Of a stretch of 64,000 nt of DNA, positions 30,082-51,287 are shown one piece after another. Source of the DNA: Sinorhizobium medicae. Its GTDB lineage: Bacteria; Pseudomonadota; Alphaproteobacteria; Rhizobiales; Rhizobiaceae. The stretch covers positions 62,001-126,000 of the forward strand of contig NZ_VITA01000014.1 in NCBI RefSeq assembly GCF_007827695.1. The letters are read 5' to 3'. The notes under the pieces were generated by a model, which did no database searches, was not told the origin of the DNA, and saw nothing but the letters and a program-made list of their open reading frames with translations. The position numbers and the translations under genes are program-made. Each line of letters begins with the position of its first letter. The stretch's first letter is position 1.

Positions 30082-30972
30082 TCAGCCGAGGGCGTGACTT
30101 GCCAAGCCGTAGAGGTTTGGTCCTGGTACTACGTCGGCGCGGCCTTTGCCCGGACGCGACATTGCGAGTACCGTATCGAAGACGGCTAGGCCGGATTGGG
30201 AGAGAAATGTCGCGAAAAGGCCGGTCTCGATCGGGGTGTCGAGCCTCAGAAACTGGTTTTCTTTGGCGGCGACATGCGGTCGGATAACTGCGATAGCGTC
30301 GGCATTGGAGTCCGCAACGACCGGGCCCACGACATGGCCCCTGCCAAAGGGACGACAAAGCGCGAAAGCTTGCAGCCGATCGCCACGAAACAGGCCGTAG
30401 CCGACCGATTGCGTGAAGAGTTTGCCGATCAGAGCCGCCCTTGAAACGCCGAATGCCCCTGCATCCAGCTCAGCGACGGCGACAAGGTCCTCGCCTTCCA
30501 GTCGCCTGACCGGTGGCTGCTCCGTCGTAGTCGTCGAGTCGGCCGGGCGGACGATGCCCTGGCATTGGTAAATGGTCCGCATGGGCTTGAAATCGAGCGA
30601 ATGATACAGACGGCGGGAGGCCCTCGTTGCATTGAGTCTGAGGTTGCGTCCCAGACAATCCCGAAGCACGTGTTCCATGAGCCAGCGTGCGGTGCCGTTT
30701 GACTGCAGACGCGGGGAAGTGATCACCATGCCTATGGTGGCGAAATCGTCGCCATGTGGGAACCACATGGCCGAACCTGTTAGCCTGCCAATGTCGTCGC
30801 GTGCGACATAGCCGCGGCCGCACTCGCGCAGAAACTGCAAATCCTCGGAGCGCAGAGGCCACCCGACGGAAACGGACAAGGCATGCAACTGCTCGAGATC
30901 GGCGCTCTCGATTGTGGCCACATGCATTTTGAAGCTGTCGATCAACTTGGATTCGGATGCCGGTGCGTCCAC
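30082..30972 (-). CDS. Two-domain GNAT acetyltransferase (paralogue 1)
   Basis: GTG start at 30972 is preferred because GGGAGG lies 6 bases upstream. An ATG at 30990 is in frame. About 296 codons. The N-terminal GNAT domain (SVGWPLRSEDLQFLRECGRG, GMVITSPRLQSNGTARWLME with the acetyl-CoA loop, RLYHSLDFKP) is followed by a second, degenerate GNAT-like half (ELDAGAFGVSRAALIGKLFT, AFALCRPFGRGHVVGPVVAD). The same two-part protein recurs at 40733-41569, and both end in ALG. It probably acylates or binds an amino compound handled by the catabolic island. It diverges from the argE-like gene. Confidence 0.82.
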   Translation of the reverse strand: MDAPASESKLIDSFKMHVATIESADLEQLHALSVSVGWPLRSEDLQFLRECGRGYVARDDIGRLTGSAMWFPHGDDFATIGMVITSPRLQSNGTARWLMEHVLRDCLGRNLRLNATRASRRLYHSLDFKPMRTIYQCQGIVRPADSTTTTEQPPVRRLEGEDLVAVAELDAGAFGVSRAALIGKLFTQSVGYGLFRGDRLQAFALCRPFGRGHVVGPVVADSNADAIAVIRPHVAAKENQFLRLDTPIETGLFATFLSQSGLAVFDTVLAMSRPGKGRADVVPGPNLYGLASHALG

Positions 30973-31301
30973 CCCTTGCCTCCCTGCCATTGCGTTTGCT
31001 TTCGTCTCTTCTTTACCAATTCAGGTTCGGCCAGGCAGCGGCGAAAGCTTTTCCATTGTTCACAATAGAGCCCGCGGCTCGACAGGATTCGCTCGAGAGC
31101 GCGTCGCGCGCACAATAATCCTCCGAATTCGACACGCTTTCGGCATGTAAATCCTTCGAAGGCTTCTAAGCTACCTGGGAGCACGAGTTATGGGTCGCTT
31201 GCCCGTCATCTCATGCATGGTGACGCGAAACAAACCTTTCGTTGCGGACGCATGATCGACGGCATCGATATCGACGAGCCCGGCATATTGCGAGGACACC
31301 A
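30973..31301. other. Divergent promoter region at the left edge of the catabolic island
   Basis: 329 bases between the leftward GNAT gene and the rightward ArgE-like gene. No protein frame supported. AT-richer patches near 31040-31075 (TTCCATTGTTCACAATAG, with the short inverted pair TTGT/ACAA) and 31105-31150 are where promoters and a regulator such as the Lrp protein at 49250 could act. Confidence 0.4.
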
Positions 31302-32426
31302 ATGCAGGCAGCGGAAATACTAGGGAAACTCGTCGGCTTTCGCTCCGTCGTGGGGCTACCTAACGACGACGCCGTGTCCTGGATCCGGGGCTATTTGGAA
31401 TGCCATGGCATCGCAGTGGATGTCCTTCCCGGTCCAGAGGGCGATCGGTCCAACATCTTCGCCACCATCGGGCCAAAAGAGGCGCATGGCTATATCCTCT
31501 CCGGCCATATGGACGTCGTTCCGGCAACCGAGGCCGGCTGGACGAGCGATCCCTTCATCCTTCGCGCCGAGGGGGGCCGGCTCTATGGCCGCGGCACCAC
31601 CGATATGAAAGGTTTCCTTGCCGCCGGTCTGGCCGCCGTTCCGAAGCTTGCGGCGATGCCACTTCGCCGGCCGCTGCACCTCGCCTTCTCCTATGATGAG
31701 GAGGCCGGCTGTCGCGGCGTACCCCACATGATCGCACGCATGCCGGAACTTTGCCGCCAGCCGCTCGGCGCGATCATCGGCGAGCCGAGCGGCATGCGCG
31801 CTATCCGTGCCCACAAGGGCAAGGCGGCGGCACGGCTGACGGTCAGGGGGCGCTCCGGGCATTCTTCGCGCCCGGATCAGGGACTGAATGCGATACACGG
31901 CGTAGCAGGCGTCCTGACCCAGGCGGTCGCGGAAGCCGTCCGGCTGGCCGGCGGCCCCTTCGAGCATGTCTTCGAACCGCCCTACTCCTCCCTCCAGATC
32001 GGAACGGTAAAGGGCGGTCAGGCGGTCAACATTATTCCGGACAGCTGCGAGGTCGAGTTAGAGGCACGAGCAATTTCCGGTGTCGACCCGGCAGAGCTGC
32101 TGACGCCGGTGCGAAAGATCGCCGAGGCGTTGACGGCACTAGGCTTCGAGGTGGAGTGGCAGGAACTCAGTGCCTATCCGGCGCTTTCACTTGAACCTCA
32201 CGCTCCGCTGGCGGCACTGCTCGAGGCGTTGACCGGCCGCGAGCCTCTCCCCGCCGTCAGCTACGGTACCGAGGCGGGCCTTTTCCAACGGGCTGGCATC
32301 GACGCGATCATCTGCGGCCCCGGTGACATCGGCCGCGCCCACAAGGCGGACGAATACATCCTCATCGACGAGCTTATGGCATGTCAAGCGATGATAGAGG
32401 CGCTCGGCGCCCACTGCATAGCGTAA
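31302..32426 (+). CDS. argE: ArgE/DapE-family (M20) deacylase
   Basis: 374 codons from ATG 31302. M20 metal ligands: LSGHMDVVP (His), GRGTTDMKG (Asp), YDEEAGCRG (Glu-Glu pair, the first being the general base) and AHKADEY (His). Dimerisation domain in the middle ([20 protein letters not shown]). It resembles acetylornithine deacetylase, which hydrolyses N-acyl amino acids. In this island of amine catabolism its job is probably deacylation of an N-acyl amino acid rather than arginine synthesis. AAGGAG follows for the next gene, 11 bases downstream. Confidence 0.88.
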
Positions 32427-32437
32427 GGAGACGCGCG

Positions 32438-33361
32438 ATGGCCTTCCTGTTCAACTCCGATGCGAAGCGCGGCGCGATTTTCGCCGAAGCATTCGCGCGC
32501 AAGCTGCCTGACATTCCTTTTGCCATGAACCCGGCAGCGGTCGATCCCGACGCCGTGCGCTACCTGATCACCTGGACGGTGCCGGACAATCTCGCACGCT
32601 ATCGAAACCTCGAAATCCTCTTCTCGATCGGCGCCGGCGTCGACCAGTTCCGCATCGATGCGGTGCCGCCGCATGTGCGGGTGGTGCGCATGGTCGAGGA
32701 CGGCATCGTTCGAATGATGCAGGAATATGTGACGCTTGCCGTCCTCGCGCTTCACCGCGACCTGCCGGCCTATCTCGAGCAGCAGCGAGGCCAAAATTGG
32801 AAAGCCATGGCGCCGGTCCAGGCGGACGAACGCCGCGTAGGCGTGCTCGGGCTCGGCATACTCGGAACTGCGGTACTCGATCGGCTGAAGCCTTTCGGCT
32901 TTCCGCTCTCCGGCTGGAGCCGCAGCCCGCATGAAATCGAAGGCGTGAGGTGCCTAAGCGGCCGGAACGGTCTCGACACTTTGCTGGGCTCGACCGACAT
33001 TCTCGTCTGCCTCCTGCCGCTCACCGAAGAGACGCGCGGCTTCCTTAACGCCAAACTGTTTGCTCGGCTCCCGACCGGTGCTGCACTCGTCCATGTCGGC
33101 CGCGGCCCTCAACTCGATCGTGACGCACTTATCGAGGCACTTGATAACGGCCGTCTCTCCGGCGCCATGGTCGATGTGACCGACCCCGAACCGCTTCCTT
33201 CTGGTCATCCCTTCTGGGCCCACTCGAAGATCCTGCTGACGCCGCACATCGCGAGCGTCACCCAGCCGGAAACCGCCGCCAAAGCCGTGATCGAGAACAT
33301 CAAACGGCATCGGTCAGGTCTCGAGCCGATCGGGCTGGTCGACCGTCGCCGCGGCTACTGA
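32438..33361 (+). CDS. GhrA-like D-2-hydroxyacid dehydrogenase (glyoxylate/hydroxypyruvate reductase)
   Basis: 307 codons. NAD(P)-binding [12 protein letters not shown] at about 135-146, substrate Arg in [12 protein letters not shown]-like segment ([13 protein letters not shown]), Asp/Glu in [13 protein letters not shown] and catalytic His in [10 protein letters not shown]. Short N-terminal half as in GhrA. Reduces a 2-ketoacid to a 2-hydroxyacid or the reverse. AAGGAG ribosome binding site at 32425-32430. Probably co-transcribed with the ArgE-like gene. Confidence 0.88.
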
Positions 33362-33448: not shown

Positions 33449-33802
33449 ATGTCGCTCTTGAAAACCATCGAGACCAACCCTTCTTTCGCGCCGCGCGAGT
33501 CCAGCCCGCTCCCCGACCGTCTGATCTCCGGCAATCCTACCTTCAAGACCTGGGCACAGGACGTCGCCCGCGGCGAGATAGTCCACACCGGCGTCTGGGA
33601 AGCGACACCCGGCGAGACGCGCTCGATCAAGGGGGAGACCTTCGAGTTCTGTCACATTCTTTCCGGTGTCGTCGAACTCACGCCGGAAAACGGGGAGCCG
33701 GTCGTCTACAAGAGCGGCGACAGCTTCGTCATGAAGCCGGGTTTCGTCGGCATCTGGAAGACAATCGAGACGGTGCGCAAGATCTACGTGACCGTGATGT
33801 GA
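33449..33802 (+). CDS. Cupin-domain protein (cupin_3/DUF861)
   Basis: 117 codons, AGGAAAGG ribosome binding site. Single cupin: RGEIVHTGVWEATPGETRSI, EFCHILSGVVELTPENGEPV, YKSGDSFVMKPGFVGIWKTI. This group (sometimes called cupin_3) is linked to ureidoglycolate- or sugar-acid-like conversions and to unknown steps in amine catabolism clusters. The metal-binding His set is incomplete (one His in CHILSG), so it may lack metal. Confidence 0.82.
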   Translation: MSLLKTIETNPSFAPRESSPLPDRLISGNPTFKTWAQDVARGEIVHTGVWEATPGETRSIKGETFEFCHILSGVVELTPENGEPVVYKSGDSFVMKPGFVGIWKTIETVRKIYVTVM

Positions 33803-34171: not shown

Positions 34172-35635
34172 ATGACACTCAGCTTTGATCCCGACACACT
34201 TCCCCTGCCCGTCGGCCACTTCATCGGCGGTCGGCTCGTGCCGGCCGAAGGCGTCATCGACATGCATCGCCCCTCCGACGGCAAGTCTTATGCGGGTTGC
34301 CCGCTTGCGGATGAGGTACTCGTCGATCGCGCCGTCGAAACCGCCAGGAAGGCGCTCAAGGCAAGCAACTGGGGCGGCGTGCGGCCGCGCGAGCGAACAG
34401 TCGTGCTGCAGCGCTGGGCAGACCTGATCGAAAGCGAGGCGGAGACCCTCGCCAAGCTCGAGGCGCTTTCCTCGACCCGGCCCGTTGGTCATCTCGTCGC
34501 CGGCGACATTGCCATCAGCGCCGAACAGATCCGTTTCTTCGCCGAATTCGCCGACAAGGAGGGAAGCGATCTCGTGCCGACCGACGATGCCAGCCTCGGA
34601 ATGATCATGACCGAGCCCTATGGCGTCGTCGGTGCCATCACGCCCTGGAACTTTCCCGTTTCCATGGCCGCCTGGAAGCTCGGCCCGGCGCTCGCGGCCG
34701 GCAATGCGGTGGTGCTGAAGCCCTCGGAAATGACACCGTTCTCGACGGTCTACCTTGCGGAGCTCGCAATCCGCGCCGGTCTGCCGGCCGGCCTCATCAA
34801 CATCGTTCTGGGCGACGGCCCCGTCACCGGCACGGCCATGACCGGACACCCGGACATCGCCAAGGTAAGCTTCACCGGCTCGACCGGCGCGGGCTCCGCC
34901 ATCATGGCCAACATCGCTCGCGCCGGCATCAAGCCAATGACGCTGGAACTCGGAGGAAAAAGCCCACAACTGGTCTTCTCCGATGCCGATCTCGACAAGG
35001 CGGCGGCGGCGATCGCGCAGAGCATGCTGTCAAATGCCGGCCAGGCCTGTGTCGCGGGCTCCCGGCTGATCGTAGAGGAAAGAATTGCCGCTCCCCTCGC
35101 CGAAGCGATCGTCACGCGCATGAAGGCGGCGAAGCCGGGGCCAACCTGGGACGAGACGAGCGAGTACTCGCCAATCATCTCGAAGAGCCAGTTAAACCGC
35201 ATCCACCACATCGTCCAACAGGCCGTCGCGGCGGGCGGCGAATGCCTGTTCGGTGGCGCCCCAATGGATGCGCCGGGCTATTTCTATCAGCCGACGCTAA
35301 TGGCAGTACGCGACAGCTTCTCGCCGGCGGTTGCAGAGGAGATCTTCGGTCCGGTGCTCACCATGCAGACCTTCGTGGACGAAGAGGAGGCGCTCGCGCT
35401 CGCCGATCACCCGACCTACGGCCTTGCCGCCGGCCTCTTCACTCGCGACCTGTCGCGCGCCCTGGGGCTGACGCGAAGGCTCCAGGCCGGAACCGTCTGG
35501 GTCAACCGCTACAGCCGCTCTCGCGACCACATCCTGCCGACCGGCGGCTACAAGCGCTCCGGTATCGGCAAGGATCTTGGCCGCGAGGCTTACCACGCCA
35601 ACCGCAAGAGCAAAAGCGTGCTCATCAGCCTCTAG
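34172..35635 (+). CDS. NAD-dependent aldehyde dehydrogenase
   Basis: 487 codons from ATG 34172. Rossmann loop FTGSTGAGSAI, general base Glu in LELGGKSP, catalytic Cys in NAGQACVAGSRL, and C-terminal oligomerisation strand GGYKRSGIGKDLGREAYHAN. Resembles the betaine-aldehyde/aminobutyraldehyde group. It would oxidise the aldehyde made by the amine oxidase or aminotransferase of the island. The next gene starts 9 bases later. Confidence 0.9.
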   Translation: MTLSFDPDTLPLPVGHFIGGRLVPAEGVIDMHRPSDGKSYAGCPLADEVLVDRAVETARKALKASNWGGVRPRERTVVLQRWADLIESEAETLAKLEALSSTRPVGHLVAGDIAISAEQIRFFAEFADKEGSDLVPTDDASLGMIMTEPYGVVGAITPWNFPVSMAAWKLGPALAAGNAVVLKPSEMTPFSTVYLAELAIRAGLPAGLINIVLGDGPVTGTAMTGHPDIAKVSFTGSTGAGSAIMANIARAGIKPMTLELGGKSPQLVFSDADLDKAAAAIAQSMLSNAGQACVAGSRLIVEERIAAPLAEAIVTRMKAAKPGPTWDETSEYSPIISKSQLNRIHHIVQQAVAAGGECLFGGAPMDAPGYFYQPTLMAVRDSFSPAVAEEIFGPVLTMQTFVDEEEALALADHPTYGLAAGLFTRDLSRALGLTRRLQAGTVWVNRYSRSRDHILPTGGYKRSGIGKDLGREAYHANRKSKSVLISL

Positions 35636-35644
35636 GGAAAAGCA

Positions 35645-36688
35645 ATGAAATGCTATTCTATCGCACTCATCCCCGGCGACGGCATCGGCCGCGACGTTAC
35701 GGATGCCGCCTGGCACGTCCTTTCCACCGTCGCCATGCACTCCGGTTTCACGCTAACCGGTACACCTTTTCCCTGGTCCTGCGCCTTCTACAAGGAGACC
35801 GGCGCGATGATGCCGGCGGACGGCATCGAAGCGCTGCGCCCTTTCGACGCCATCCTGCTCGGCTCCGTCGGCTGGCCGGCGCAGGTGCCGGATTCCATCT
35901 CGCTGCACGGCCTGCTGCTGCCGATCCGCAAGGCCTTCGTGCAATATGCCAATATTCGGCCGCATAGACTGCTGCCCGGCGTCGAAGGACCGCTGAGGGC
36001 GAGCGACTTCGATATCCTCTGCGTCCGCGAGAACACAGAGGGCGAATATTCCGGCGCCGGTGGTCGCGTACATCAGGGCACGCCGGGCGAGGTGGCGGTC
36101 GAGACCTCGATCTTTACGCGCGCGGGTGTCGAACGGATCCAACGCTTCGGCTTCGAGCAGGCACGTCAGCGTCGCGGCAAGCTCGCCTCGGTGACCAAAT
36201 CGAACGCCCAGAAATACTCGATGGTGTTCTGGGATGAGGTCACGCGAGAGCTCGCTGCCGAATACCGGGACGTCGAGGTGACGAGCTATCATATTGATGC
36301 CATGGCCGCTCGCATGGTGATGGCACCGGAAAGCCTTGATGTCGTCGTCGCCTCGAACCTCTTCGGAGACATCCTCACCGACCTCGGCGCTGCCATACAG
36401 GGCGGTTTGGGCTTTGCCGCTTCCGCCAACATCAATCCGGACAGAGGTGCCCCCTCCATGTTCGAGCCGGTACACGGTTCTGCCCCGGATATCGCCCATC
36501 TCGGCATCGCCAACCCAATCGCCGCCATCTGGTCCGGCGCGATGATGCTCGAGCATCTCGGAGAAAAAGAGGCGGCGGGGATGATCATAGCCGCGCTCGA
36601 AAGAGCGACCATCCGCGGCATCGGCACCGTTCCGGGAAAAGACAGGACCGAAACCATCACCGCGGCTGTGCTCGCCGCGCTCGATTGA
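35645..36688 (+). CDS. Tartrate/isopropylmalate/isocitrate-type dehydrogenase
   Basis: 347 codons. Family features: IALIPGDGIGRDV at the start, RENTEGEYSGAGG, TKSNAQKYSMVFWD with the catalytic Lys, and NLFGDILTDLGAAIQGGLGF with the metal-binding Asp. The sequence is closest in type to TtuC tartrate dehydrogenase/D-malate dehydrogenase, which oxidatively decarboxylate a 2-hydroxyacid. Tight spacing on both sides suggests co-transcription with the two aldehyde dehydrogenases. Confidence 0.87.
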   Translation: MKCYSIALIPGDGIGRDVTDAAWHVLSTVAMHSGFTLTGTPFPWSCAFYKETGAMMPADGIEALRPFDAILLGSVGWPAQVPDSISLHGLLLPIRKAFVQYANIRPHRLLPGVEGPLRASDFDILCVRENTEGEYSGAGGRVHQGTPGEVAVETSIFTRAGVERIQRFGFEQARQRRGKLASVTKSNAQKYSMVFWDEVTRELAAEYRDVEVTSYHIDAMAARMVMAPESLDVVVASNLFGDILTDLGAAIQGGLGFAASANINPDRGAPSMFEPVHGSAPDIAHLGIANPIAAIWSGAMMLEHLGEKEAAGMIIAALERATIRGIGTVPGKDRTETITAAVLAALD

Positions 36689-36722: not shown

Positions 36723-38177
36723 ATGAGATTGAAGGACAAGAAACTTTTCCGGCAATTGAGCCTGATCGGCGGTGAGTGGATCGCCGGCGCTTCGGGCTCG
36801 GTCGTCGACGTCGTCGACCCTGCGAACGAGGCCGTTCTCGGCACCGTGCCGGACATGGGAACGGCCGAAACCCGCGCGGCCATCGAAGCGGCCAATGCCG
36901 CATTCGGACCCTGGAAGAAGAAAACGCACGCCGAACGCGCCGCCCTGCTCGAGCGCTGGCACGCGCTGATGATCGAAAACCTCGAAGACCTGGCGCTGCT
37001 CGTGACGATGGAACAGGGCAAGCCGCTCGAGGAGGCGCGTGGCGAGATCCGCTATGGCGCCGCGTTTGTGAAATGGTTCGCTGAAGAAGCCCGCCGCATC
37101 GGTGGCCAAACCATTCCCTCCCCGACGCCGGACCGCCGCATCGTCGTGCTGAAGGAAGCGGTCGGCGTCTGCGCCATCGTCACGCCGTGGAACTTCCCGA
37201 ACGCGATGATCACCCGGAAGATCGCCCCGGCGCTCGCCGCCGGCTGCACGGTGGTCATCAAGCCGTCGGAGTTCACGCCCTTCTCGGCGCTCGCCCTTGG
37301 CGTGCTCGCGGAGCGCGCCGGCATTCCGGCCGGTGTCGTCAATATAGTGACCGGCTTGCCGACGGCGATCGGTAACGAGTTCATGACGAACGAGACGGTA
37401 CGCAAGATCTCCTTCACCGGCTCGACCCGCGTCGGTTCGCTGCTGATGCGCGGCGCCGCAGACAGCGTCAAGAGGCTCTCGCTCGAACTCGGCGGTAATG
37501 CCCCCTTTATCGTTTTCGACGACGCCGATCTCGATCTTGCAGTCGAAGGCGCGATCGCGTCGAAGTTCCGCAACGGTGGTCAGACCTGCGTCTGCGCCAA
37601 CCGAATTCTCGTGCAGGCCGGCGTCTATGACGACTTCGCCGAGAAGCTCGGCGCCCGCGTCAACGTGATGAAGGTCGGCCCGGGGACGGAGCCCGGCATC
37701 GCGATTGGCCCGATGATCAATGAGGCTGCCATCGCCAAGATCGACCGTCACGTCGAGGACGCGATTGCCAAGGGCGCAAAGATAGCGGCACGCGGCAGGT
37801 CGCTGACGGAGGGCCGGCAATATACGGCCCCGATCGTGCTCACCGGCGCGACGACTGAAATGCTGCTCGCCACTGAAGAGACCTTCGGCCCCGTCGCTCC
37901 ACTTTTCCGCTTCGAGACCGAGGACGAGGCGATCGCCATCGCCAACGGCACGCCCTTTGGGCTGGCCGCCTATTTCTACACCGAAGGCCTGAAGCGCTCC
38001 TGGCGGGTGGCGGAAGCACTCGAGTTCGGCATGATCGGCCTCAATACCGGCGCCATCTCGACCGAAGTCGCGCCCTTCGGCGGCGTCAAGCAATCCGGCC
38101 TCGGACGCGAAGGCGCCCAGGTCGGCATTGAGGAATATCTCGAGATGAAGAGCTTCCACATCGGCGGGCTGGACTAG
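36723..38177 (+). CDS. gabD: Succinate-semialdehyde dehydrogenase (GabD-like)
   Basis: 484 codons. PWNFPNAMITRKIAPALAAG, Rossmann loop FTGSTRVGSLL, Glu in LELGGNAP, catalytic Cys in NGGQTCVCANR, C-terminal GGVKQSGLGREG. Typical of GabD, oxidising succinic or glutaric semialdehyde, the end step of polyamine or gamma/omega-amino-acid breakdown. The leader holds the repeated unit GAGGGATAAACACA twice just before ATG. Confidence 0.9.
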   Translation: MRLKDKKLFRQLSLIGGEWIAGASGSVVDVVDPANEAVLGTVPDMGTAETRAAIEAANAAFGPWKKKTHAERAALLERWHALMIENLEDLALLVTMEQGKPLEEARGEIRYGAAFVKWFAEEARRIGGQTIPSPTPDRRIVVLKEAVGVCAIVTPWNFPNAMITRKIAPALAAGCTVVIKPSEFTPFSALALGVLAERAGIPAGVVNIVTGLPTAIGNEFMTNETVRKISFTGSTRVGSLLMRGAADSVKRLSLELGGNAPFIVFDDADLDLAVEGAIASKFRNGGQTCVCANRILVQAGVYDDFAEKLGARVNVMKVGPGTEPGIAIGPMINEAAIAKIDRHVEDAIAKGAKIAARGRSLTEGRQYTAPIVLTGATTEMLLATEETFGPVAPLFRFETEDEAIAIANGTPFGLAAYFYTEGLKRSWRVAEALEFGMIGLNTGAISTEVAPFGGVKQSGLGREGAQVGIEEYLEMKSFHIGGLD

Positions 38178-39748: not shown

Positions 39749-40417
39749 CTAAAGACCGACGACGCCCGGCAGGCCGGAAATGTCGGCGATTTCGACGTAG
39801 CCGTAATAGGGATTGGCCGGCTCGTGACCGCGATTGACCCAGACCTTGTTCTTGATGCCGAGGTCATGCGCCGACATTAGATCGTAGCGGAAGGACGATG
39901 AACAATGGAGAATATCCTCCGGACCGCAGCCCAACATGTCGAACATGTATTCGAACGCCTTGAAGCGCGGCTTATAGGCCTGCGCCTGTTCGGCGGTGTA
40001 GACCGCATGGAAAGGAGTGCCGAGCTTCTCGACATTCGACATGATCTGCGAATTCATCGCGTTGGACAGGATGACAAGCGGGATCTCCTTGGCGACCCTG
40101 GCAAGACCGGCAGGCACGTCGGGATGCGGACCCCAGGTCGGGACGCGTTCATAGACCAGGCGCGCCGCTTCCTCGCGGAATTTCATGCCATTGCGCTTGC
40201 AGGTCCGTTCGAGCGAATTGTGCACCACCTCCGCATAGGGCTTCCAGTGGCCGAGGATCTCGTCAAGTCGGTAAGCGGCGAAATTCTTGATGAATTCCGC
40301 CATGCGCGACTCGTCGAGCTGTTCGCTGTAAAGGTCGCGCGCCGCTTCCGCCATCTGGAAGTTGGTCAGCGTGCCATAGCAGTCGAAGGTGATGTATCTC
40401 GGACGGAAGGTCGTCAT
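39749..40417 (-). CDS. HAD superfamily hydrolase, haloacid dehalogenase type II
   Basis: 222 codons. HAD motif I ITFDCYGTL with nucleophile Asp, motif II VILSNAM, motif III Lys in QAYKPRF, motif IV region LHCSSSFRYDLMSAHDLG. The type II (L-2-haloacid dehalogenase) cap is present. Many members act on substrates other than haloacids. A second family member lies at 43195-43908. Upstream of and co-transcribed with the PuuB-like oxidase. Confidence 0.87.
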   Translation of the reverse strand: MTTFRPRYITFDCYGTLTNFQMAEAARDLYSEQLDESRMAEFIKNFAAYRLDEILGHWKPYAEVVHNSLERTCKRNGMKFREEAARLVYERVPTWGPHPDVPAGLARVAKEIPLVILSNAMNSQIMSNVEKLGTPFHAVYTAEQAQAYKPRFKAFEYMFDMLGCGPEDILHCSSSFRYDLMSAHDLGIKNKVWVNRGHEPANPYYGYVEIADISGLPGVVGL

Positions 40418-43194: not shown

Positions 43195-43908
43195 GTGCGC
43201 AAGAGCCTTCCGGAATTCAAATACATGACTTTCGACGTCGTCGGCACGCTGATCGACTTCGAAGGCGGCCTCAAGGACTGTCTCGCCGGCATTGCCACCG
43301 AGGCAGGTGTCACGATAGATGGCGAGGAAGCGCTCAACCTTTACCGCGCAGCGCGCTATTCCAAGGACGCCGACCTCTTCCCGGACGATCTCGTACGGGT
43401 CTATCTTGAAATCGCGCCAAAGCTTGGCCTGCCAGCCGAACCGAAATACGGAGAACGTTTCAGGGACTCCACGAAGAACTGGAAAGGTTTCGCCGACAGC
43501 GCCGAGGCGCTGGCGCGCCTTGCCGAAGGTTGCCGGCTCATCGCGATGACCAATGCCCGTCGCTGGGCCTTTGATCTCTTTGCCCAGAAGCTGGGCAACC
43601 CCTTTCACGCAGCCTTTACGGCCGACGATACCGGGACCGAGAAACCGGACCCCGTCTTCTTCGAGAAGCTCTTCGATTTCGTCGGCTTGGAAGGAAATTC
43701 AAAGGACGACATTCTGCATGTCGCCCAGAGCCAGTATCACGATATCGGCATGTCCCGAAAGCTCGGATTGGCCAACTGTTGGATCGAGCGTCGCCACGCA
43801 CAGAAGGGCTATGGCGGCACGATCGAGCCCGCCGAATTCACCGCGCCCGATTTCCATTTCACCTCCATGGCCGGTCTCGCCGATGCCGTGGCCGTCGCAC
43901 GCGGCTGA
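43195..43908 (+). CDS. HAD superfamily hydrolase, haloacid dehalogenase type II (second copy)
   Basis: 237 codons from GTG 43195, with GGGGA 5 bases upstream. Longer frames from 42964 lack a ribosome binding site and extend into unrelated sequence. Motif I MTFDVVGTLIDF, motif II IAMTNARRWA, Lys in GTEKPDPVFF, motif IV region LHVAQSQYHDIGMSRKLGL. Same family as 39749-40417, with a DVVGT instead of DCYGT active-site loop. Followed by the ABC importer genes. Confidence 0.86.
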   Translation: MRKSLPEFKYMTFDVVGTLIDFEGGLKDCLAGIATEAGVTIDGEEALNLYRAARYSKDADLFPDDLVRVYLEIAPKLGLPAEPKYGERFRDSTKNWKGFADSAEALARLAEGCRLIAMTNARRWAFDLFAQKLGNPFHAAFTADDTGTEKPDPVFFEKLFDFVGLEGNSKDDILHVAQSQYHDIGMSRKLGLANCWIERRHAQKGYGGTIEPAEFTAPDFHFTSMAGLADAVAVARG

Positions 43909-43978: not shown

Positions 43979-45586
43979 ATGAATGACATCACCAATTGGA
44001 CCAGATCTGACGACGCTATGATCGAAACCGCCATTCGTCGCGGAGCGACGCGCCGCGAACTCCTGCAGATGATGCTGGCCGGCGGTGCTGCCCTCTCTGC
44101 CGGCAGTCTGATGCTCGGCCGAGCCGGCAATGCGGTTGCCGCAACGCCGGTGGCCGGCGGTACGCTCAAAGCGGCCGGCTGGTCGGCTTCCACCGCCGAC
44201 ACGCTGGACCCGGCCAAGGCATCGCTCTCCACCGACTATGTCCGCTGCTGCTCCTTCTACAACCGACTCACCTTCCTCGATAAAGGCGGCACGCCGCAGA
44301 TGGAACTGGCCGAAGCTATCGAGACCAAGGATGCCAAGACCTGGACCGTCAAGCTGAGGAAGGGCGTTACCTTCCATGATGGCAAGCCGCTGACAGCCGA
44401 CGACGTGATCTTCTCGCTGAAGCGCCACCTCGACCCGGCGGTCGGTTCAAAGGTCGCCAAGATCGCCGCGCAGATGACGAGCTTCAAGGCGGTGGACAAG
44501 CAGACGGTCGAGATCACGCTCGCGAGCCCGAACGCCGACCTGCCGACGATCCTCTCGATGCACCACTTCATGATCGTCGCCGACGGCACCACCGACTTCT
44601 CGAAAGGGAACGGCACCGGCGCTTTTGTGAGAGAAGTCTTCGAGCCCGGCGTGCGCTCCGTCGGCCTCAAGAACAAGAACTACTGGAAGTCCGGACCGAA
44701 CGTCGATTCCTTCGAGTACTTCGCCATCAGCGACGACAGTTCCCGGGTGAATGCGCTCTTGTCCGGCGACATCCACCTTGCCGCCACGATCAATCCGCGC
44801 TCCATGCGCCTGGTCGAGAGCCAAGGCGACGGCTTCGTCCTCTCGAAGACGACCTCCGGCAACTACACCAACCTCAACATGCGGCTGGACATGGAACCCG
44901 GCAGCAAGCGCGACTTCGTCGAAGGCATGAAGTACCTCGTCAACCGCGAGCAGATCGTCAAGTCGGCGCTTCGGGGTCTAGGCGAGGTCGGCAACGACCA
45001 GCCGGTGTCCCCGGCCAACTTCTATCACAATCCCGACCTGAGGCCGCACGCCTTCGACCCCGAGAAGGCGAAGTTCCACTTCGAGAAGGCCGGCATGCTA
45101 GGCCAGTCGATCCCGGTGGTTGCCTCCGATGCAGCGAACTCCGCGATCGATATGGCAATGATCATTCAGGCCTCCGCTGCCGAAATCGGATTGAAGCTCG
45201 ATGTGCAGCGCGTTCCCGCAGACGGTTACTGGGATAATTACTGGCTGAAGGCGCCGATCCACTTCGGCAACATCAACCCGCGCCCCACGCCGGATATCCT
45301 GTTCTCTCTGCTCTACTCCTCGGAGGCTCCGTGGAACGAGAGCCAATACAAGTCGGAGAAATTCGATAAGATGCTGATCGAAGCGCGTGGCTCGCTCGAC
45401 CAGGAGAAGCGCAAGGCGATCTACAATGAGATGCAGGTGATGGTCGCCAGTGAAGCCGGCACCATCATTCCGGCCTATATCTCCAACGTCGACGCGATCA
45501 CCGCCAAGCTCAAGGGCCTGGAAGCCAATCCGCTTGGCGGGCAGATGGGTTATGCTTTTGCGGAATATGTCTGGCTCGAGGCCTGA
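43979..45586 (+). CDS. ABC importer substrate-binding protein, family 5, Tat-like signal
   Basis: 535 codons from ATG 43979 (AAAAGGGGA upstream). Signal with TRRELLQMMLAGGAALSAGS and cleavage near VAATPVAG. SBP family 5 core: LRKGVTFHDGKPLTADDVIF, SLKRHLDPAVGSKVAKIAAQ, YLVNREQIVKSALRGLGEVG. It brings the island's substrate to the importer in the periplasm. First gene of the importer, followed by a hairpin at 45603-45629. Confidence 0.92.
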   Translation: MNDITNWTRSDDAMIETAIRRGATRRELLQMMLAGGAALSAGSLMLGRAGNAVAATPVAGGTLKAAGWSASTADTLDPAKASLSTDYVRCCSFYNRLTFLDKGGTPQMELAEAIETKDAKTWTVKLRKGVTFHDGKPLTADDVIFSLKRHLDPAVGSKVAKIAAQMTSFKAVDKQTVEITLASPNADLPTILSMHHFMIVADGTTDFSKGNGTGAFVREVFEPGVRSVGLKNKNYWKSGPNVDSFEYFAISDDSSRVNALLSGDIHLAATINPRSMRLVESQGDGFVLSKTTSGNYTNLNMRLDMEPGSKRDFVEGMKYLVNREQIVKSALRGLGEVGNDQPVSPANFYHNPDLRPHAFDPEKAKFHFEKAGMLGQSIPVVASDAANSAIDMAMIIQASAAEIGLKLDVQRVPADGYWDNYWLKAPIHFGNINPRPTPDILFSLLYSSEAPWNESQYKSEKFDKMLIEARGSLDQEKRKAIYNEMQVMVASEAGTIIPAYISNVDAITAKLKGLEANPLGGQMGYAFAEYVWLEA

Positions 45587-45675: not shown

Positions 45676-46626
45676 GTGAACAACCGGGTCCTATCCCTTG
45701 TGCTGAGCAGATTGCTCATCGCCGTGATCACCTTGGTGATCGTCTCCTTCGCCGTCTTCTTCGCGACGACGCTCCTGCCGGGGGACACCGCGTCGATCCT
45801 GCTCGGTCAGGCCGCCACGCCGGAGGCCGTCGAAGGCCTGCGCAAGGCGATGCACCTCGACGAGCCGGCAATCTTCCGTTTCCTGCGCTGGATCGTCGGT
45901 CTGCTGCAAGGCGACCTCGGCATATCCTATGCCAACGAGATGCCGGTCGCAGATCTGATTGGCGGGCGCTTCGTCAATACACTTCAGCTCGCCGGTGTTA
46001 CCGCCCTCTTCTCTGTGCCGATCGCACTCACCCTCGGGATTACGTCGGCGATGCTGCGCGGTTCGCCTTACGACCGGATTGTGACGGTGCTTACCATCGG
46101 CGTCATCTCCGTGCCGGAGTTCATGATTGCGACCTCCGCGGTGCTGATCTTCGCCGTTTACCTGAAATGGCTTCCGGCGCTCTCCTTTGCCAATGAGGTG
46201 ACGTCGCTCACCGATCTGCTGCGCATCTATGCCATGCCGGTGATCACGCTCAGCTTCGTCATCTCGGCCCAGATGATCAGAATGACGCGCGCGGCAGTGA
46301 TCGAGACGCTGAACACGCCCTATGTGGAGATGGCTCTGCTCAAGGGCGCCTCCCGGCCGCGCATGGTGTTTCGCCATGCCCTGCCAAATGCTCTGGGGCC
46401 GATCGTCAATGCGGTCGCGCTTTCGCTCTCCTATCTGCTCGGCGGGGTCATTATCGTCGAGACGATCTTCAATTATCCCGGTATTGCCAAGCTGATGGTC
46501 GATGCCGTGTCGACCCGCGATCTGCCGCTGATCCAGAGCTGCGCGATGGTCTTCTGCCTGGGCTATCTGCTCCTGATCACGACAGCCGACATCATCGCCA
46601 TCCTTTCCAATCCGAGGCTACGATGA
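45676..46626 (+). CDS. Peptide-type ABC importer permease (DppB-like)
   Basis: 316 codons from GTG 45676 with GAAAGGGAG at a good distance. N-terminal helix LLIAVITLVIVSFAVFFATT, LLPGDTASILLGQAATPEAV, EAA loop MALLKGASRPRMVFRHALPN. Overlaps the next permease start by 4 bases. Confidence 0.92.
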   Translation: MNNRVLSLVLSRLLIAVITLVIVSFAVFFATTLLPGDTASILLGQAATPEAVEGLRKAMHLDEPAIFRFLRWIVGLLQGDLGISYANEMPVADLIGGRFVNTLQLAGVTALFSVPIALTLGITSAMLRGSPYDRIVTVLTIGVISVPEFMIATSAVLIFAVYLKWLPALSFANEVTSLTDLLRIYAMPVITLSFVISAQMIRMTRAAVIETLNTPYVEMALLKGASRPRMVFRHALPNALGPIVNAVALSLSYLLGGVIIVETIFNYPGIAKLMVDAVSTRDLPLIQSCAMVFCLGYLLLITTADIIAILSNPRLR

Positions 46627-47486
46627 CAATGACCCACTCTGAGACCAAGTCTGCCCGGATTTCGGGAACCCGGCTCGGCTATCGCTTCAATATCGTCGGG
46701 ATGGTCGGCCTTTCCATCATTCTTTTTTGGGCGCTCGTCGCGATCTTCGCGCCGCTGATCATCCCCTATCCGGTCGGGGAGATCGTCGATCTCGATTACT
46801 TCGGCCCGATGAGCCGCGACTTCTGGCTTGGTTCCGACTACCTCGGCCGCGACATGCTTTCACGCATCCTGATGGGAGCCCGCTACACGGTCGGCATCTC
46901 GCTTGCGGCAGTCACCATCGCCTGCTTCAGCGGCGTGGTGCTCGGCATGATCGCAGCGGTCGCCGGCGGGTGGCTCGACACTATTCTCAGCCGCCTTCTC
47001 GACGCCCTCAATTCAATCCCGAGTAAGCTCTTCGGTCTCGTGGTGGTCGCCGCCGTCGGCTCCTCCATACCCGTGCTGATCCTGACGTTATCGGTGGTAT
47101 ACATCCCCGGCGCCTACCGCTTCGCCCGCGCGCTCGCTGTCAACATCAACGCGATGGATTTCATTACCGTGGCTCGCATCCGCGGCGAGAGCACGCTTTA
47201 TCTCATACGCTCGGAGATCCTGCCGAACATCATCGGCCCGGTGCTTGCCGACCTCGGCATCCGCTTCGTCTTTATCGTTCTGCTGCTCTCGGGCCTCTCC
47301 TTCCTTGGCCTCGGCGTCCAGCCGCCCTATGCCGATTGGGGGGCACTGGTGCGCGAGAACATCGGCGCCCTTCCCTTCGGCGCACCGGCGGTGATTTTTC
47401 CGTCCTTCGCCATTGCAAGCCTCACGATCAGCGTGAACCTCCTGATCGACAACCTGCCGCAGAAGATCCGCGATCGGAGCGAATAA
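46623..47486 (+). CDS. Peptide-type ABC importer permease (DppC-like)
   Basis: 287 codons. FWLGSDYLGRDMLSRILMGA (DppC signature) and EAA-loop region RIRGESTLYLIRSEILPNII, six helices. Its stop (TAA 47484-47486) overlaps the start of the ATPase gene by one base. Confidence 0.92.
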   Translation: MTMTHSETKSARISGTRLGYRFNIVGMVGLSIILFWALVAIFAPLIIPYPVGEIVDLDYFGPMSRDFWLGSDYLGRDMLSRILMGARYTVGISLAAVTIACFSGVVLGMIAAVAGGWLDTILSRLLDALNSIPSKLFGLVVVAAVGSSIPVLILTLSVVYIPGAYRFARALAVNINAMDFITVARIRGESTLYLIRSEILPNIIGPVLADLGIRFVFIVLLLSGLSFLGLGVQPPYADWGALVRENIGALPFGAPAVIFPSFAIASLTISVNLLIDNLPQKIRDRSE

Positions 47487-49141
47487 TGGTGAACCTTGTA
47501 GAAATCCGTGACTTGAAGGTCGAAGCCACCACCGATTCCGGCCGCAAGGTCGAGATCATCAAGGGCGTCAGCCTCGATGTCGCCGAGGGCGAGATCGTCG
47601 CTCTGATCGGCGAAAGCGGCTCGGGCAAGACGACGATCGCCCTGACGCTGATGGGATATGCCCGCCCGGGCTGCCGCATCTCCGGCGGCAGCGTCTCGGT
47701 CGCCGGCAATGACTTGGTGACGCTGACGGAAAAGCAGCGAGCCAAGGTGCGCGGCACCGAGGTCACCTATGTTCCGCAATCCGCTGCAGCCGCTTTCAAC
47801 CCGGCCGCGACGATCATGGACCAGGTGATCGAAATCACCCGCATCCACGGACTCATGCCGGTCGTCGAGGCGCGCGCACGCGCCGTCGAGCTTTTCCGGG
47901 CGTTGTCGCTACCCGAGCCCGAGACGATCGGCAGCCGCTATCCGCACCAGGTTTCCGGCGGACAACTGCAGCGTTTATCGGCCGCCATGGCCCTCATCGG
48001 CGACCCGAAGCTCGTCATCTTCGACGAGCCGACAACGGCGCTCGACGTAACGACCCAAATCGAGGTGCTACGCGCCTTCAAGTCCGTGATGAAGAAGGGC
48101 GGCATCGCCGGCGTCTACGTCTCGCATGACCTCGCGGTCGTCGCTCAGATCGCCGACCATATTGTCGTGTTGAAGGCCGGCGAGGTACAGGAGGCCGGCA
48201 CCACCGAGGAAATCCTTTCGAACGCCAAGCACCCCTATACGCGCGAACTCCTCTCGGCCTTTGAACCAAAGCCGCGGGAGGCTGCCGACGCAGCCGAGAG
48301 CGCACCGGCTCCCCTGCTAAAGATCGAAAATCTGGTCGCGGGATACGGTGCGTCCAAGAGCGATGGCTTGCCGCTCGTGCGCGCCGTTGAAGATGTGAGC
48401 CTCAAGGTGGAAAAGGGTCGCAACCTCGGCATCATCGGCGAGTCGGGTTGCGGCAAGTCGACGCTCGCCCGCGCCATTGCCGGCATATTGCCGGCCGCCG
48501 TCGGCAAGATCGTCTTCGATGGCAAGGAACTCGGCCGCAGCGCCCGCGAGCGCACGCGCGACCAGCTGCGCGAAATGCAGATCGTCTTTCAATATGCCGA
48601 CACCGCCCTCAACCCGGCGAAATCCGTCGAGGACATTCTCGACCGACCGCTCGTCTTCTATCATGGGATGAATGCAAGGGCCCGCAGCCTCCGCATCGAC
48701 GAGCTGCTCGACATGGTGCGCCTGCCTCGCAACCTGCGTCATCGCCGGCCGGGCGAGCTTTCCGGCGGCCAAAAACAGCGCGTCAACTTCGCGCGCGCGC
48801 TCGCCGCCGATCCAAAGCTGATCCTTTGCGATGAGATCACTTCGGCACTCGACACGGTCGTCGCCGCCGCGGTCATCGAGCTGCTGAAGGAATTGCAGCG
48901 CGAGCTCGGTCTATCTTACATCTTCATCAGCCACGACCTCTCAGTGGTGGAAGCGATCTGCGACGAGATTGTCGTGATGTATGGCGGCAGAAAGGTTGAG
49001 GACATCACTCCGGCCAGGATCAATGCGCCGCACCACCCCTATTCGCAGCTGCTCTTCTCCTCGGTGCCAAAGCTCGATCCCGCCTGGCTCGATGGCCTCG
49101 AGCAGGATCCGGAATTGGTCAGGGCCTACTGCCGGAGGTAG
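47486..49141 (+). CDS. Fused double ATPase of the peptide-type ABC importer (DppD-DppF fusion)
   Basis: 551 codons from ATG 47486. First ATPase half: Walker A GESGSGKTT, signature VSGGQLQRL, Walker B LVIFDEPTTALD. Second half from about residue 280: Walker A GESGCGKST, signature LSGGQKQRV, Walker B LILCDEITSALD with Ile in place of the usual Pro after the catalytic Glu. The two halves normally form separate DppD and DppF proteins (compare 15079-17078), so one gene supplies both nucleotide-binding sites. Confidence 0.92.
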   Translation: MVNLVEIRDLKVEATTDSGRKVEIIKGVSLDVAEGEIVALIGESGSGKTTIALTLMGYARPGCRISGGSVSVAGNDLVTLTEKQRAKVRGTEVTYVPQSAAAAFNPAATIMDQVIEITRIHGLMPVVEARARAVELFRALSLPEPETIGSRYPHQVSGGQLQRLSAAMALIGDPKLVIFDEPTTALDVTTQIEVLRAFKSVMKKGGIAGVYVSHDLAVVAQIADHIVVLKAGEVQEAGTTEEILSNAKHPYTRELLSAFEPKPREAADAAESAPAPLLKIENLVAGYGASKSDGLPLVRAVEDVSLKVEKGRNLGIIGESGCGKSTLARAIAGILPAAVGKIVFDGKELGRSARERTRDQLREMQIVFQYADTALNPAKSVEDILDRPLVFYHGMNARARSLRIDELLDMVRLPRNLRHRRPGELSGGQKQRVNFARALAADPKLILCDEITSALDTVVAAAVIELLKELQRELGLSYIFISHDLSVVEAICDEIVVMYGGRKVEDITPARINAPHHPYSQLLFSSVPKLDPAWLDGLEQDPELVRAYCRR

Positions 49142-49175
49142 AGGGTTCCGATCCGATCGCACCGACGCAAATCGG

Positions 49176-49196: not shown

Positions 49197-49249
49197 TGCC
49201 CTGCCGGGAGAGGGGCGGCCCCCCCGGGGCATTGCAGATCTCGGCCGAA

Positions 49250-49726
49250 TCAAACGCGAAACAGGCTGGTCAGCGGCATGTGCGCCTTGACGATCGGCGA
49301 CTTCAGCACGACGAAGCTGAAATATTTGTCGATGCCCACGTCCATGTCAGTGAGGCGCTCCATGATCGTCTGGTATTCGCCGATGCCGGCCGTGACGAAC
49401 TTCAAGAGATAATCATAGCCGCCGGACACCAGATGGCATTCGATCACCTGGTCGACCTTGTCGATTGCCGCAAGGAAGCGGGCGAAATCGATCTGCCGGT
49501 GGTTCTTCAAGGTGATTTCGGTGAAGACCGTCAGGGTCTGCCCGAGCTTGCCGATGTTAATCTGCGCGGAATAGCCGTCGATATAGCCCTCCGACTGCAG
49601 CTTTTTCACCCGCATCAGGCAGGGGCTCGGCGAGAGGTTGACCAGCTCAGCGAGTTCCACATTGGTGATGCGGCCATTCTTCTGCAGTTCGTACAAAATC
49701 TTAATGTCGATCCGGTCGAGTTTCAT
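49250..49726 (-). CDS. Lrp/AsnC-family transcriptional regulator
   Basis: 158 codons from ATG 49726. N-terminal HTH (RIDIKILYELQKNGRITNVE, LAELVNLSPSPCLMRVKKLQ) and a C-terminal RAM/AsnC ligand domain (TVFTEITLKNHRQIDFARFL, CHLVSGGYDYLLKFVTAGIG). Lrp-type regulators sense amino acids and control their catabolism or transport. It is the only regulator inside the island, so it probably responds to the imported amino compound. Confidence 0.92.
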   Translation of the reverse strand: MKLDRIDIKILYELQKNGRITNVELAELVNLSPSPCLMRVKKLQSEGYIDGYSAQINIGKLGQTLTVFTEITLKNHRQIDFARFLAAIDKVDQVIECHLVSGGYDYLLKFVTAGIGEYQTIMERLTDMDVGIDKYFSFVVLKSPIVKAHMPLTSLFRV

Positions 49727-49961
49727 GGCGCGCCTTCCCCTTGCTGAAGTGGGCCAACGGCGCAGCAGATTGTGCTGCGACTTCCCGACGACGACCTTAA
49801 CACATGTGAAAGGCGCGTCGATTTCGTTTGCAGCAATGAACCGAAGCAGAAAGGGCGGCATTGCTCCTGCAAGACGGCATCTTGTACTGCACTCCGGGCG
49901 TACTCGGACAACGCCGCCGCGCCAAAGCCGCTAGACTGCGGGGCGAAACGGAGGTCCCGCC

Positions 49962-51287
49962 ATGCCCGCACCGCTGAAACTCGTCGATACATCGCCGAAG
50001 CTGCCCGAGACCGCCGATGCCGTGGTAATCGGCGGCGGCATCGTCGGCGTGTTTGCGGCCTATTATCTTGCCCGCCGCGGAATGAAGGTCGCGCTCGTTG
50101 AGAAGGGACGGATCGGCGCGGAACAGTCGAGTCGCAACTGGGGTTGGTGCCGCCAGCAGAATCGGGACGCCCGCGAATTGCCGATGGCAACGAAGAGCCT
50201 CGATCTTTGGGAGCGTTTCGCCGCCGAGAGCGGCGAGGACACCGGTTTCCGCCGCTGCGGGCTGCTCTACCTCAGCACTAGCGAAGAGGAACTGGCCGGC
50301 TGGGCACGCTGGCGCGATTTCGCCCGGAACGTCGGCGTCACCACCCATATGCTCAACAGCGCCCAGGCGAGCGAGCGCGGCCGCGCAACCGGCAAACCAT
50401 GGAAGGGCGGCGTCTTTTCGCCGACCGACGGCACCGCCGATCCGGCAAGCGCGGCACCCGCGGTCGCGCGTGCGATCCTGAAGCTTGGCGGCACAGTGCA
50501 CCAGTCCTGCGCCGCCCGCGGCATAGAGACAGAAAGCGGTCGCCTGTCCGGTGTCGTCACCGAGCATGGCACCATCCGCACGAAAACGGCCGTCCTTGCC
50601 GGCGGCGCCTGGGCCTCCTCCTTCTGCCGCCAGCTGGGTATCCGCTTCCCGCAGGCCGCTATCCGCTCGTCGATCCTTGCCGTCTCGCCGGGCTCCATCG
50701 GCCTTCCGGATGCGCTGCATACGGCCGCTGTTTCGGTGACGCGCCGCGCCGACGGCGGCTATACGGTTGCCATCAGCGGCCGCGGCCGCGTCGACCCGAC
50801 GCCTCAGCAACTCAGGTTCTCGCCGCAATTTCTGCCGATGTTCGTCAAACGCTGGCGCAGCCTGGCGCCAGGCGGGCTTGAGGGCTTCCACTCAGGCCAT
50901 GAGACCTTGGCCCGCTGGCGACTGGACGCCCCTACGCCGATGGAGCGCATGCGCATCCTTGATCCCGCGGTCGATAAGGCCACTATCCGCCTCACCCATT
51001 CGCGCGCAGTCGATCTCCTGCCTCCCCTGAAGAACATCAGCATCGCCGCCGCATGGGCGGGCTATATCGACAGCACGCCGGACGGGGTCCCGGGCATCGG
51101 CGAAATCGCCGCCGTACCGGGTTTCATCCTCGCCGCCGGCTTCAGCGGGCACGGCTTCGGTATCGGTCCGGGCGCCGGCCACTTGATCGCAGACATCGTG
51201 ACCGGTAACGAGCCAATCGTGGATCCCCGCCCCTACCATCCGGACCGCTTCCGAAAATCCGCCTGGGGTAAAGTCGCTGACTTTTAG
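49962..51287 (+). CDS. DadA-like FAD-dependent amino acid oxidoreductase
   Basis: 441 codons. FAD loop AVVIGGGIVGVFAAYYLARR at about 23-42, KGRIGAEQSSRNWGWCRQQN, and the C-terminal DAO part (YIDSTPDGVPGIGEIAAVPG, FILAAGFSGHGFGIGPGAGH). Resembles D-amino-acid dehydrogenase/glycine oxidase-type enzymes that oxidise an amine to an imine. Divergent from the Lrp gene, which probably controls it. Last intact gene of the island. Confidence 0.88.
   Translation: MPAPLKLVDTSPKLPETADAVVIGGGIVGVFAAYYLARRGMKVALVEKGRIGAEQSSRNWGWCRQQNRDARELPMATKSLDLWERFAAESGEDTGFRRCGLLYLSTSEEELAGWARWRDFARNVGVTTHMLNSAQASERGRATGKPWKGGVFSPTDGTADPASAAPAVARAILKLGGTVHQSCAARGIETESGRLSGVVTEHGTIRTKTAVLAGGAWASSFCRQLGIRFPQAAIRSSILAVSPGSIGLPDALHTAAVSVTRRADGGYTVAISGRGRVDPTPQQLRFSPQFLPMFVKRWRSLAPGGLEGFHSGHETLARWRLDAPTPMERMRILDPAVDKATIRLTHSRAVDLLPPLKNISIAAAWAGYIDSTPDGVPGIGEIAAVPGFILAAGFSGHGFGIGPGAGHLIADIVTGNEPIVDPRPYHPDRFRKSAWGKVADF

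Follow-up and report, generated by a model that had tools for sequence, protein, structure and literature searches.

The 64-kb window studied here, that is, the whole stretch of DNA analysed (64,000 nucleotides of the symbiotic plasmid of Sinorhizobium medicae), holds an island of 18 intact open reading frames at positions 30082–51287, in which stop codons are found only at the end of the frames. Judging by gene families and their conservation, this island would be a self-contained catabolic unit, which imports an amino-acid-like compound and dismantles it, via azetidine-type chemistry, to four-carbon (C4) units leaving as D-malate and then pyruvate. The large substrate would most likely be nicotianamine or a relative. 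As a whole, this reading is given a probability of about 0.46, that is, slightly below an even chance. The pair of HAD hydrolases encoded by had1 and had2 is probably the decisive clue to the function of the cluster, had2 being the best one. Families were assigned with Pfam and NCBIfam profiles of the 18 proteins, solved relatives are PDB sequence matches, and published work is cited from open PMC papers.

HAD hydrolases and the putative route

The best of the 15 PDB sequences matched by had2 (43195–43908, + strand) is L-azetidine-2-carboxylate hydrolase (AC hydrolase; 3smv/8ywo/9v14; E=4.5e-42), with an identity of 38% over 231 residues. The respective value for cis-epoxysuccinate hydrolase is E=1.2e-9. 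In the case of had1 (39749–40417, − strand), an entry named haloacid dehalogenase (8hp5, plus its mutants) comes first with E=2.5e-21, AC hydrolase (3smv) is second with 9.6e-17, and the other listed haloacid dehalogenases score 3.7e-8 or weaker.

The HAD alignment included 222 sequences, that is, the two window copies, the reference hydrolase and 219 distinct sequences from 249 matches covering at least 75% of the query, counted once matches containing a stop or unknown residues had been removed. The nucleophile D12 is kept together with T16 and K152 in 93/93 had1, 93/93 close had2, 23/23 distant had2 and 13/13 sequences of the AC-hydrolase group (window copies and reference included); T16 and K152 presumably have catalytic roles in HAD enzymes. 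In the respective tree, which was limited to these sequences without classical dehalogenases and had its groups labelled by best query, had2 (116 sequences) and the hydrolase group (13 sequences) form one clade against had1 with support of 1.0. The had2 subclade is supported by 0.984, and the had1 grouping at the midpoint root is weakly supported (0.283). On these grounds, we call had2 a sister subfamily of AC hydrolase and not AC hydrolase itself; its chemistry is likely of the same kind, and it is not certain that the substrate is the same. A published family tree already showed relatives of AC hydrolase in alphaproteobacteria (PMC8016842).

The reactions that we infer from the gene families begin with a family-5 ABC transporter, which would import the amino-acid-like compound. 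It consists of a substrate-binding protein (SBP; 43979–45586; PF00496), two permeases (45676–46626 and 46623–47486; PF00528) and an ATPase with two fused ABC domains (47486–49141; PF00005 in two stretches), all on the + strand. The start of the SBP (43979–44140) is a twin-arginine-like stretch, with RR at residues 25–26 invariant in 21 aligned sequences, and suggests export as a folded protein. Inside the cell, had2 and/or had1 would open the ring of azetidine-2-carboxylate with inversion, giving (R)-4-amino-2-hydroxybutyrate. A class-III omega-transaminase of the PRK05965 subfamily (41584–42960, + strand; NF004625, 875 bits for a cut-off of 729), whose solved relatives include polyamine:pyruvate transaminase, may turn this product into 2-hydroxy-4-oxobutyrate, a malate semialdehyde. 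The gabD product, a semialdehyde dehydrogenase of the succinate-semialdehyde dehydrogenase (SSADH) family with solved relatives mostly named SSADH (36723–38177, + strand), would then form D-malate, and the tartrate/D-malate-type dehydrogenase ttc (35645–36688, + strand; best solved relative 3flk, a tartrate dehydrogenase/decarboxylase, E=6.3e-98) would decarboxylate D-malate to pyruvate. The two genes adjoin each other and both pass an NCBIfam cut-off (gabD, TIGR01780, 669 bits for 646.35; ttc, TIGR02089, 566.5 bits for 470.4); in other words, an SSADH gene is paired with a TTC/TtuC-family gene.

L-2-haloacid dehalogenases invert at the alpha carbon, and the inversion in the proposed route is taken from them. 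If the HAD enzymes of the island act in this manner, the product of L-azetidine-2-carboxylate would have R configuration and lead on to D-malate, and the presence of a D-malate-type enzyme would be accounted for. The ghrA product (32438–33361, + strand; PF02826; PRK15469 with 207.5 bits, under the cut-off of 403) may interconvert 2-oxo acids and D-2-hydroxy acids, and its membership in the D-isomer-specific 2-hydroxyacid dehydrogenases is consistent with a D-malate route.

The other enzymes would act upstream or beside these steps. The two flavin adenine dinucleotide (FAD) oxidases of the DAO family (PF01266) may act on a larger N-alkylated molecule and free its azetidine or aminohydroxybutyrate units. 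The best solved relatives of dao2 (49962–51287, + strand) are L-amino acid deaminases (5fjm, E=6.2e-57), and dao1 (38457–39731, − strand) is a more distant family member, with an AmaA-type model as its best NCBIfam match (180.9 bits, cut-off 600) and glycine oxidase at 2.5e-19. A second aldehyde would be oxidized by the aldehyde dehydrogenase aldh1 (34172–35635, + strand; PF00171, E=2.1e-144; 4o6r, E=6.3e-106; none of its 25 listed NCBIfam matches above cut-off). The GNAT acetyltransferases gnatA and gnatB would N-acetylate free azetidine or amine intermediates for detoxification, and argE, where present, would recover the acetylated intermediates.

Published work provides precedents for both parts of the route. 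Hydrolysis of azetidine-2-carboxylate yields 2-hydroxy-4-aminobutyrate, and a transamination follows; Aspergillus has the same type of hydrolase with a GNAT as the second detoxifying enzyme, and grows poorly on azetidine-2-carboxylate when its gamma-aminobutyrate (GABA) transaminase is missing (PMC8016842). For the lower part, a gabD+ttc-type pair of the Acinetobacter carnitine cluster has been proposed to lead from malic semialdehyde to D-malate and pyruvate, and D-malate supports growth of A. baumannii ATCC 19606 (PMC9162365). Among ten stretches around hydrolase-like genes (L153–L162), two hold an SSADH-type gene, both just under the SSADH model cut-off. In L153 (59% identity to the known hydrolase) it directly adjoins the hydrolase gene and is followed by an MFS carrier, and in L156 (58%) it is one gene away, past a PucR-type regulator.

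Conservation, edges and co-regulation of the unit

From left to right, the genes of the island are gnatA, argE, ghrA, cupin, aldh1, ttc, gabD, dao1, had1, gnatB, the transaminase gene, had2, the SBP gene, the two permease genes, the gene of the double ATPase, lrp and dao2. Four of them (gnatA, dao1, had1 and lrp) are on the − strand and the other 14 on the + strand. The genes not located above are gnatA (30082–30990; Pfam Acetyltransf_1 and Acetyltransf_18), the argE-type M20 deacylase gene (31242–32426; TIGR01892, 530 bits for a cut-off of 297.7), the Cupin_3 gene (33449–33802; PF05899, E=9.7e-25), gnatB (40733–41569; assigned by Pfam) and the Lrp/AsnC regulator gene lrp (49250–49726; PF13404 and PF01037). 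Both GNATs are tandem acetyltransferases with 37% identity to each other over 271 residues. The predicted model of gnatB (mean predicted local distance difference test (pLDDT) 93.1) matches 3ddd with Z 30.4 and a root mean square deviation of 2.5 over 263 residues; in this model the fold is that of a tandem GNAT, and it gives no substrate. Yeast azetidine acetyltransferase is absent among the listed structural matches of gnatB, which excludes nothing. An earlier note on this DNA, made from the letters alone, had described about 18 intact genes of these classes with a paralogous GNAT pair, which together form a single catabolic island that includes an importer and a regulator. The frames, the profiles and the GNAT comparison agree with this description, and its view of a single unit is supported by the conserved gene set, the edges and the co-expression reported below.

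The 22 kb from 30000 to 52000 of the window are 100% identical to the plasmid NC_009621 of S. medicae WSM419. On pSymA of S. meliloti 1021 the match spans 30079–51492, with 93.2% identity and 97% covered, and all 18 genes are present (locus L090). The flanks of the unit showed no match outside it with the 6 kb fetched beyond each edge of the 1021 locus. Since the similarity stops at 30079–51492 and the flanking stretches remain unmatched, the edges of the unit are sharp. The gene table of an annotated S. medicae plasmid, itself stated to be incomplete, lists 17 of the 18 genes with matching products and lacks only argE.

Upstream, an MFS carrier and a nickel/cobalt NicO-type transporter (25679–28157) are found in S. 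medicae without a counterpart in the 6 kb beside the 1021 unit; a metal-handling link through this transporter was dropped, as that flank is unmatched there. Downstream, an ArsR-type regulator, an alpha-L-arabinofuranosidase and a sugar ABC importer (53589–59249) compose a separate locus of sugar use.

Conservation was scored in the best 80 of 517 confirmed transaminase relatives, all Rhizobiales by title, with a match defined as identity of at least 48% and half length. The complete argE–dao2 series of 17 genes is present in 44 of the 80 loci, with identical order and strand in every one of the 44. The transaminase gene is found in 80 loci, dao1, had1 and gnatB in 79 each (had1 is the most constant HAD of the cluster), the SBP gene in 74, lrp and each permease gene in 73, had2 and the ATPase gene in 72, gabD in 71, ttc in 69, dao2 in 66, cupin in 65, aldh1 in 64, ghrA in 62 and argE in 59. 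The left-hand genes, argE included, are often absent merely because the locus ends before them, and gnatA lies beyond the reach of nearly all 80 loci.

Seven hand-picked plasmid loci beyond the 80 were scored at E<=1e-8 and half length. Azospirillum lipoferum 4B and Rhizobium tumorigenes hold 18/18 genes; Thioclava has 17/18 in a changed order and without a gnatA match; the 28.6-kb stretches of Paracoccus denitrificans PD1222 and Chelatococcus daeguensis have 17/18 each, without an argE match; and Paracoccus sp. MA has 15, with aldh1, ttc and gabD not within the stretch. The gnatA gene is found in the Azospirillum, Paracoccus, Chelatococcus and R. tumorigenes clusters. In Paracoccus and Thioclava a nearly full gene set is thus retained but reshuffled. 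The gene set survives reshuffling across Hyphomicrobiales, Rhodobacterales and Rhodospirillales, and therefore, as judged by conservation, the 18-gene island is a real functional unit.

A divergent version with 14 genes exists on pKGP2 of Paracoccus marcusii (L099), with no match for gnatB, the permeases or the ATPase. The identities are 61–77% for aldh1, ttc, gabD and lrp, 58% for cupin, 56% for the transaminase and 33–47% for the SBP, the oxidases, the HADs, ghrA and argE. This is a pattern as expected if a shared lower route were combined with exchangeable upper routes tuned to different substrates. Several of the matched genes are missing from the incomplete gene table of this locus, and its annotated GNAT has only 93 residues.

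Of ten stretches around had2-like genes (L163–L172), seven (L163–L169) hold most of the cluster and L170 a divergent part of it. L171 and L172 have only the HAD and a distant DAO gene, with an additional weak ghrA match in L172. The distribution is patchy, as had2 orthologues (at least 58% identity) occur in 0/288 other genomes sampled across the class and in 14/248 others sampled across the order. In Agrobacterium pAt15955 and Microvirga VF16 a had2-like HAD gene (45–46%) is directly followed by a DAO oxidase gene without the rest of the cluster (L100, 11998–14053; L101, 11995–14050), adjoining other ABC importers and dehydrogenases. This two-gene module may represent the same chemistry in a small, portable version. 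In relatives from R. leguminosarum (L031, 4721–9132; L103, 5065–11402) an L-threonate-type operon (ltnD, otnI, otnK, aldolase and MFS genes) splits the cluster between had1 and gnatB; it was taken as an unrelated insertion and not as a part of the cluster. In C. daeguensis dao2 is immediately followed by an iron-type ABC importer (L175, 22068–25053), which hints at a link to metals; the gene tables of the other clusters examined show no such hint.

Regarding co-regulation, the S. meliloti proteins SMa1850 (oxidoreductase), SMa1855 (aminotransferase), SMa1864 (ABC ATPase) and SMa1869 (amino acid oxidase) share co-expression module 3 of a proteome study (PMC12542648). After removal of PhaR in a phbC background, their log2 changes in TY medium are 1.10, 1.96, 1.87 and 3.12, respectively, and all four were undetected in low-phosphate medium (PMC12542648). 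By names and map order they would correspond to dao1, the transaminase, the ATPase and dao2, and the module lends some independent support to co-regulation.

The substrate and the rival readings

Free azetidine-2-carboxylate needs neither two FAD oxidases, a second aldehyde dehydrogenase, GhrA nor a peptide-type importer; the two oxidases and the importer in particular suggest a larger substrate. Nicotianamine, an azetidine ring with two 3-amino-3-carboxypropyl units, would use all these steps and is our preferred, though unproven, candidate. In its full form, the proposal is that the cluster catabolises nicotianamine or a related plant metallophore, the HADs opening the azetidine ring, the FAD oxidases cutting the secondary amines and all three C4 units passing to malate or aspartate and then pyruvate; stated so completely, it is rather unlikely. 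Legume nodules make nicotianamine, and nitrogen fixation in them depends on a nicotianamine synthase of the host, but the same paper doubts that nicotianamine feeds metal directly to bacteroids (PMC7003136), which speaks against this substrate. SMa1862, which by map order would belong to the importer of the island, has been described as a proline-betaine permease homologue (PMC3596328), and azetidine-2-carboxylate is a proline analogue; we count this for azetidine chemistry, yet against nicotianamine. No characterised nicotianamine-catabolism genes and no bacterial catabolic cluster for nicotianamine or mugineic acids were found in the open PMC literature (including PMC7786132, PMC8079746 and PMC10341464). 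Mugineic acids are less abundant with Pseudomonas fluorescens SBW25, and the tentative candidate genes (porin, transport-associated protein and monooxygenase) are unlike those of the island (PMC7786132).

Several observations weigh against the azetidine reading as such. The had1 protein scores above the cut-off of the model for haloacid dehalogenase type II (TIGR01428, 202 bits for 125.4), as does the azetidine hydrolase; haloacid dehalogenase was not accepted as the function of the HADs, since the azetidine hydrolase passes the same cut-off. Beside the catalytic motifs, residues of the reference hydrolase are exchanged in had2 (C to V at position 13, Y to V at 14, W to F at 20, S to T at 121 and L to Q at 182), although these positions also vary inside the 13-member hydrolase group (C at position 13 in 7/13, L at position 182 in 8/13). 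Because of these exchanges, the substrate is one that we infer. Of the 71 loci with a length of 21.3 kb or more, seven lack had2, seven lack gabD or ttc, and four lack the SBP gene. There is no ttc or gabD match in L163, no transaminase match in L169, and no gabD match within eight of the ten stretches around hydrolase-like genes. The ligand residues of NikA, which we take to be Arg97, Arg137 and Tyr402, are not kept in the SBP, where Gly (107/107 orthologues), His (105/107) and Arg (107/107) are aligned with them, in a distant alignment with approximate positions; the predicted model of the SBP (mean pLDDT 46.3) is too poor for use. A search for a shared promoter motif (17-mers with up to three mismatches, seven intergenic stretches) gave two weak pairs and no common motif, and, made without a shuffled control, neither supports nor excludes co-regulation. 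The carriers include Chelatococcus from a biotrickling filter and Thioclava, a marine genus; the substrate thus need not be plant-made. Finally, the role of the dehydrogenase in the carnitine cluster is called speculative in its source (PMC9162365), and by our reading its semialdehyde is the isomeric 3-hydroxy-4-oxobutyrate and not the 2-hydroxy-4-oxobutyrate proposed here.

Other explanations share parts of this evidence. A different compound ending in malate semialdehyde, for instance a betaine or amino acid similar to carnitine or 4-amino-3-hydroxybutyrate, with the HADs acting as true 2-haloacid dehalogenases or cis-epoxysuccinate-type hydrolases, would agree with the gabD+ttc pair known from the carnitine cluster, the TIGR01428 score of had1, the weaker HAD relationship to cis-epoxysuccinate hydrolase and the proline-betaine description of SMa1862. 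It is nevertheless unlikely, given that had2 is far closer to the azetidine hydrolase (4.5e-42) than to the epoxysuccinate hydrolase (1.2e-9) and that no family of the carnitine-monooxygenase type was found by Pfam among the 18 proteins. More doubtful still is the reading in which, as in Pseudomonas sp. A2C, free L-azetidine-2-carboxylate is the sole substrate and the other enzymes handle side products. The family match of had2, the precedent of GNAT detoxification and the transaminase–gabD–ttc route would all suit it, but the FAD oxidases, the second aldehyde dehydrogenase, ArgE and the reductase would be unneeded, and where a close hydrolase homologue does occur with an SSADH-type gene, in two stretches, a carrier or regulator lies beside them and no other island gene is matched.

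The earlier note had drawn a route in which an acylated amine or polyamine is imported, N-acetylated, oxidized or transaminated, oxidized to the acid and deacylated by ArgE, to end in succinate via gabD. The two GNATs, an ArgE above its equivalog cut-off, an SSADH-family gabD, the two FAD oxidases and the polyamine:pyruvate relative of the transaminase are all in accordance with it. However, argE is unmatched in the P. denitrificans and Chelatococcus stretches holding the other 17 genes and is therefore unlikely to be the backbone. Furthermore, an acyl-protected, putrescine-like core leaves without a role both the HAD enzymes (79/80 and 72/80 loci) and the D-malate/tartrate-type ttc (69/80). 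We regard this route as improbable, the most so among the explanations considered. Acylation and deacylation are possible as side steps, and GNAT detoxification of azetidine or amine intermediates with salvage by ArgE fits better than an acyl backbone.

No paper on this cluster or on azetidine catabolism in rhizobia was found in the open PMC literature, nor a named pathway with this exact gene set, as the earlier note had also supposed. If the azetidine reading is true, about 17 genes that are conserved together in many nitrogen-fixing and plant-associated bacteria would gain a function, and a route through D-malate would be revealed for azetidine-type amino acids. Should nicotianamine be the substrate, the island would offer candidate genes for the microbial loss of plant metal chelators and tie rhizobial catabolism to nodule metal supply. 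The presence of the cluster in S. meliloti 1021 makes tests easy.

Comparison with known systems

Ectoine catabolism (doe/eut) has a layout of deacetylase, class-III transaminase, semialdehyde dehydrogenase and Lrp/AsnC regulator, with an ectoine hydrolase of the M24 family and a DoeB of the AstE/AspA family. The layout of the island is analogous, but no Pfam match of the ectoine-hydrolase or DoeB type was found among its 18 proteins; the correspondence to an ectoine cluster, which the earlier note had named as refuting its proposal, is thus not seen. The gamma-glutamyl-putrescine (Puu) pathway combines an FAD amine oxidase, an aldehyde dehydrogenase, a transaminase and an SSADH with a PuuA-type glutamyl ligase and a PuuD-type hydrolase. 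The first four are shared with the island, whereas no glutamyl ligase or hydrolase family of this kind is found among the 18 proteins.

In the lower part of the route, the island is similar to the Acinetobacter carnitine cluster, in which an SSADH-annotated dehydrogenase, the proposed malic semialdehyde dehydrogenase, is clustered with ttuC and CntAB, and D-malate followed by pyruvate is proposed (PMC9162365). The island differs from it in having no CntAB-type or BCCT gene, an isomeric semialdehyde and another upper route. The systems of Pseudomonas sp. A2C (AC hydrolase, PDB 3smv) and Aspergillus nidulans (AzhA/NgnA) resemble the island in the related HAD, the GNAT partner and the GABA-like product passed to a transaminase. 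The identity of the HAD is only 38%, and the island adds two FAD oxidases, ArgE, GhrA, a second aldehyde dehydrogenase, an ABC importer and a second HAD. We rate the cluster as one built round chemistry of the azetidine-hydrolase type, with an upper pathway much larger than that of the known system.

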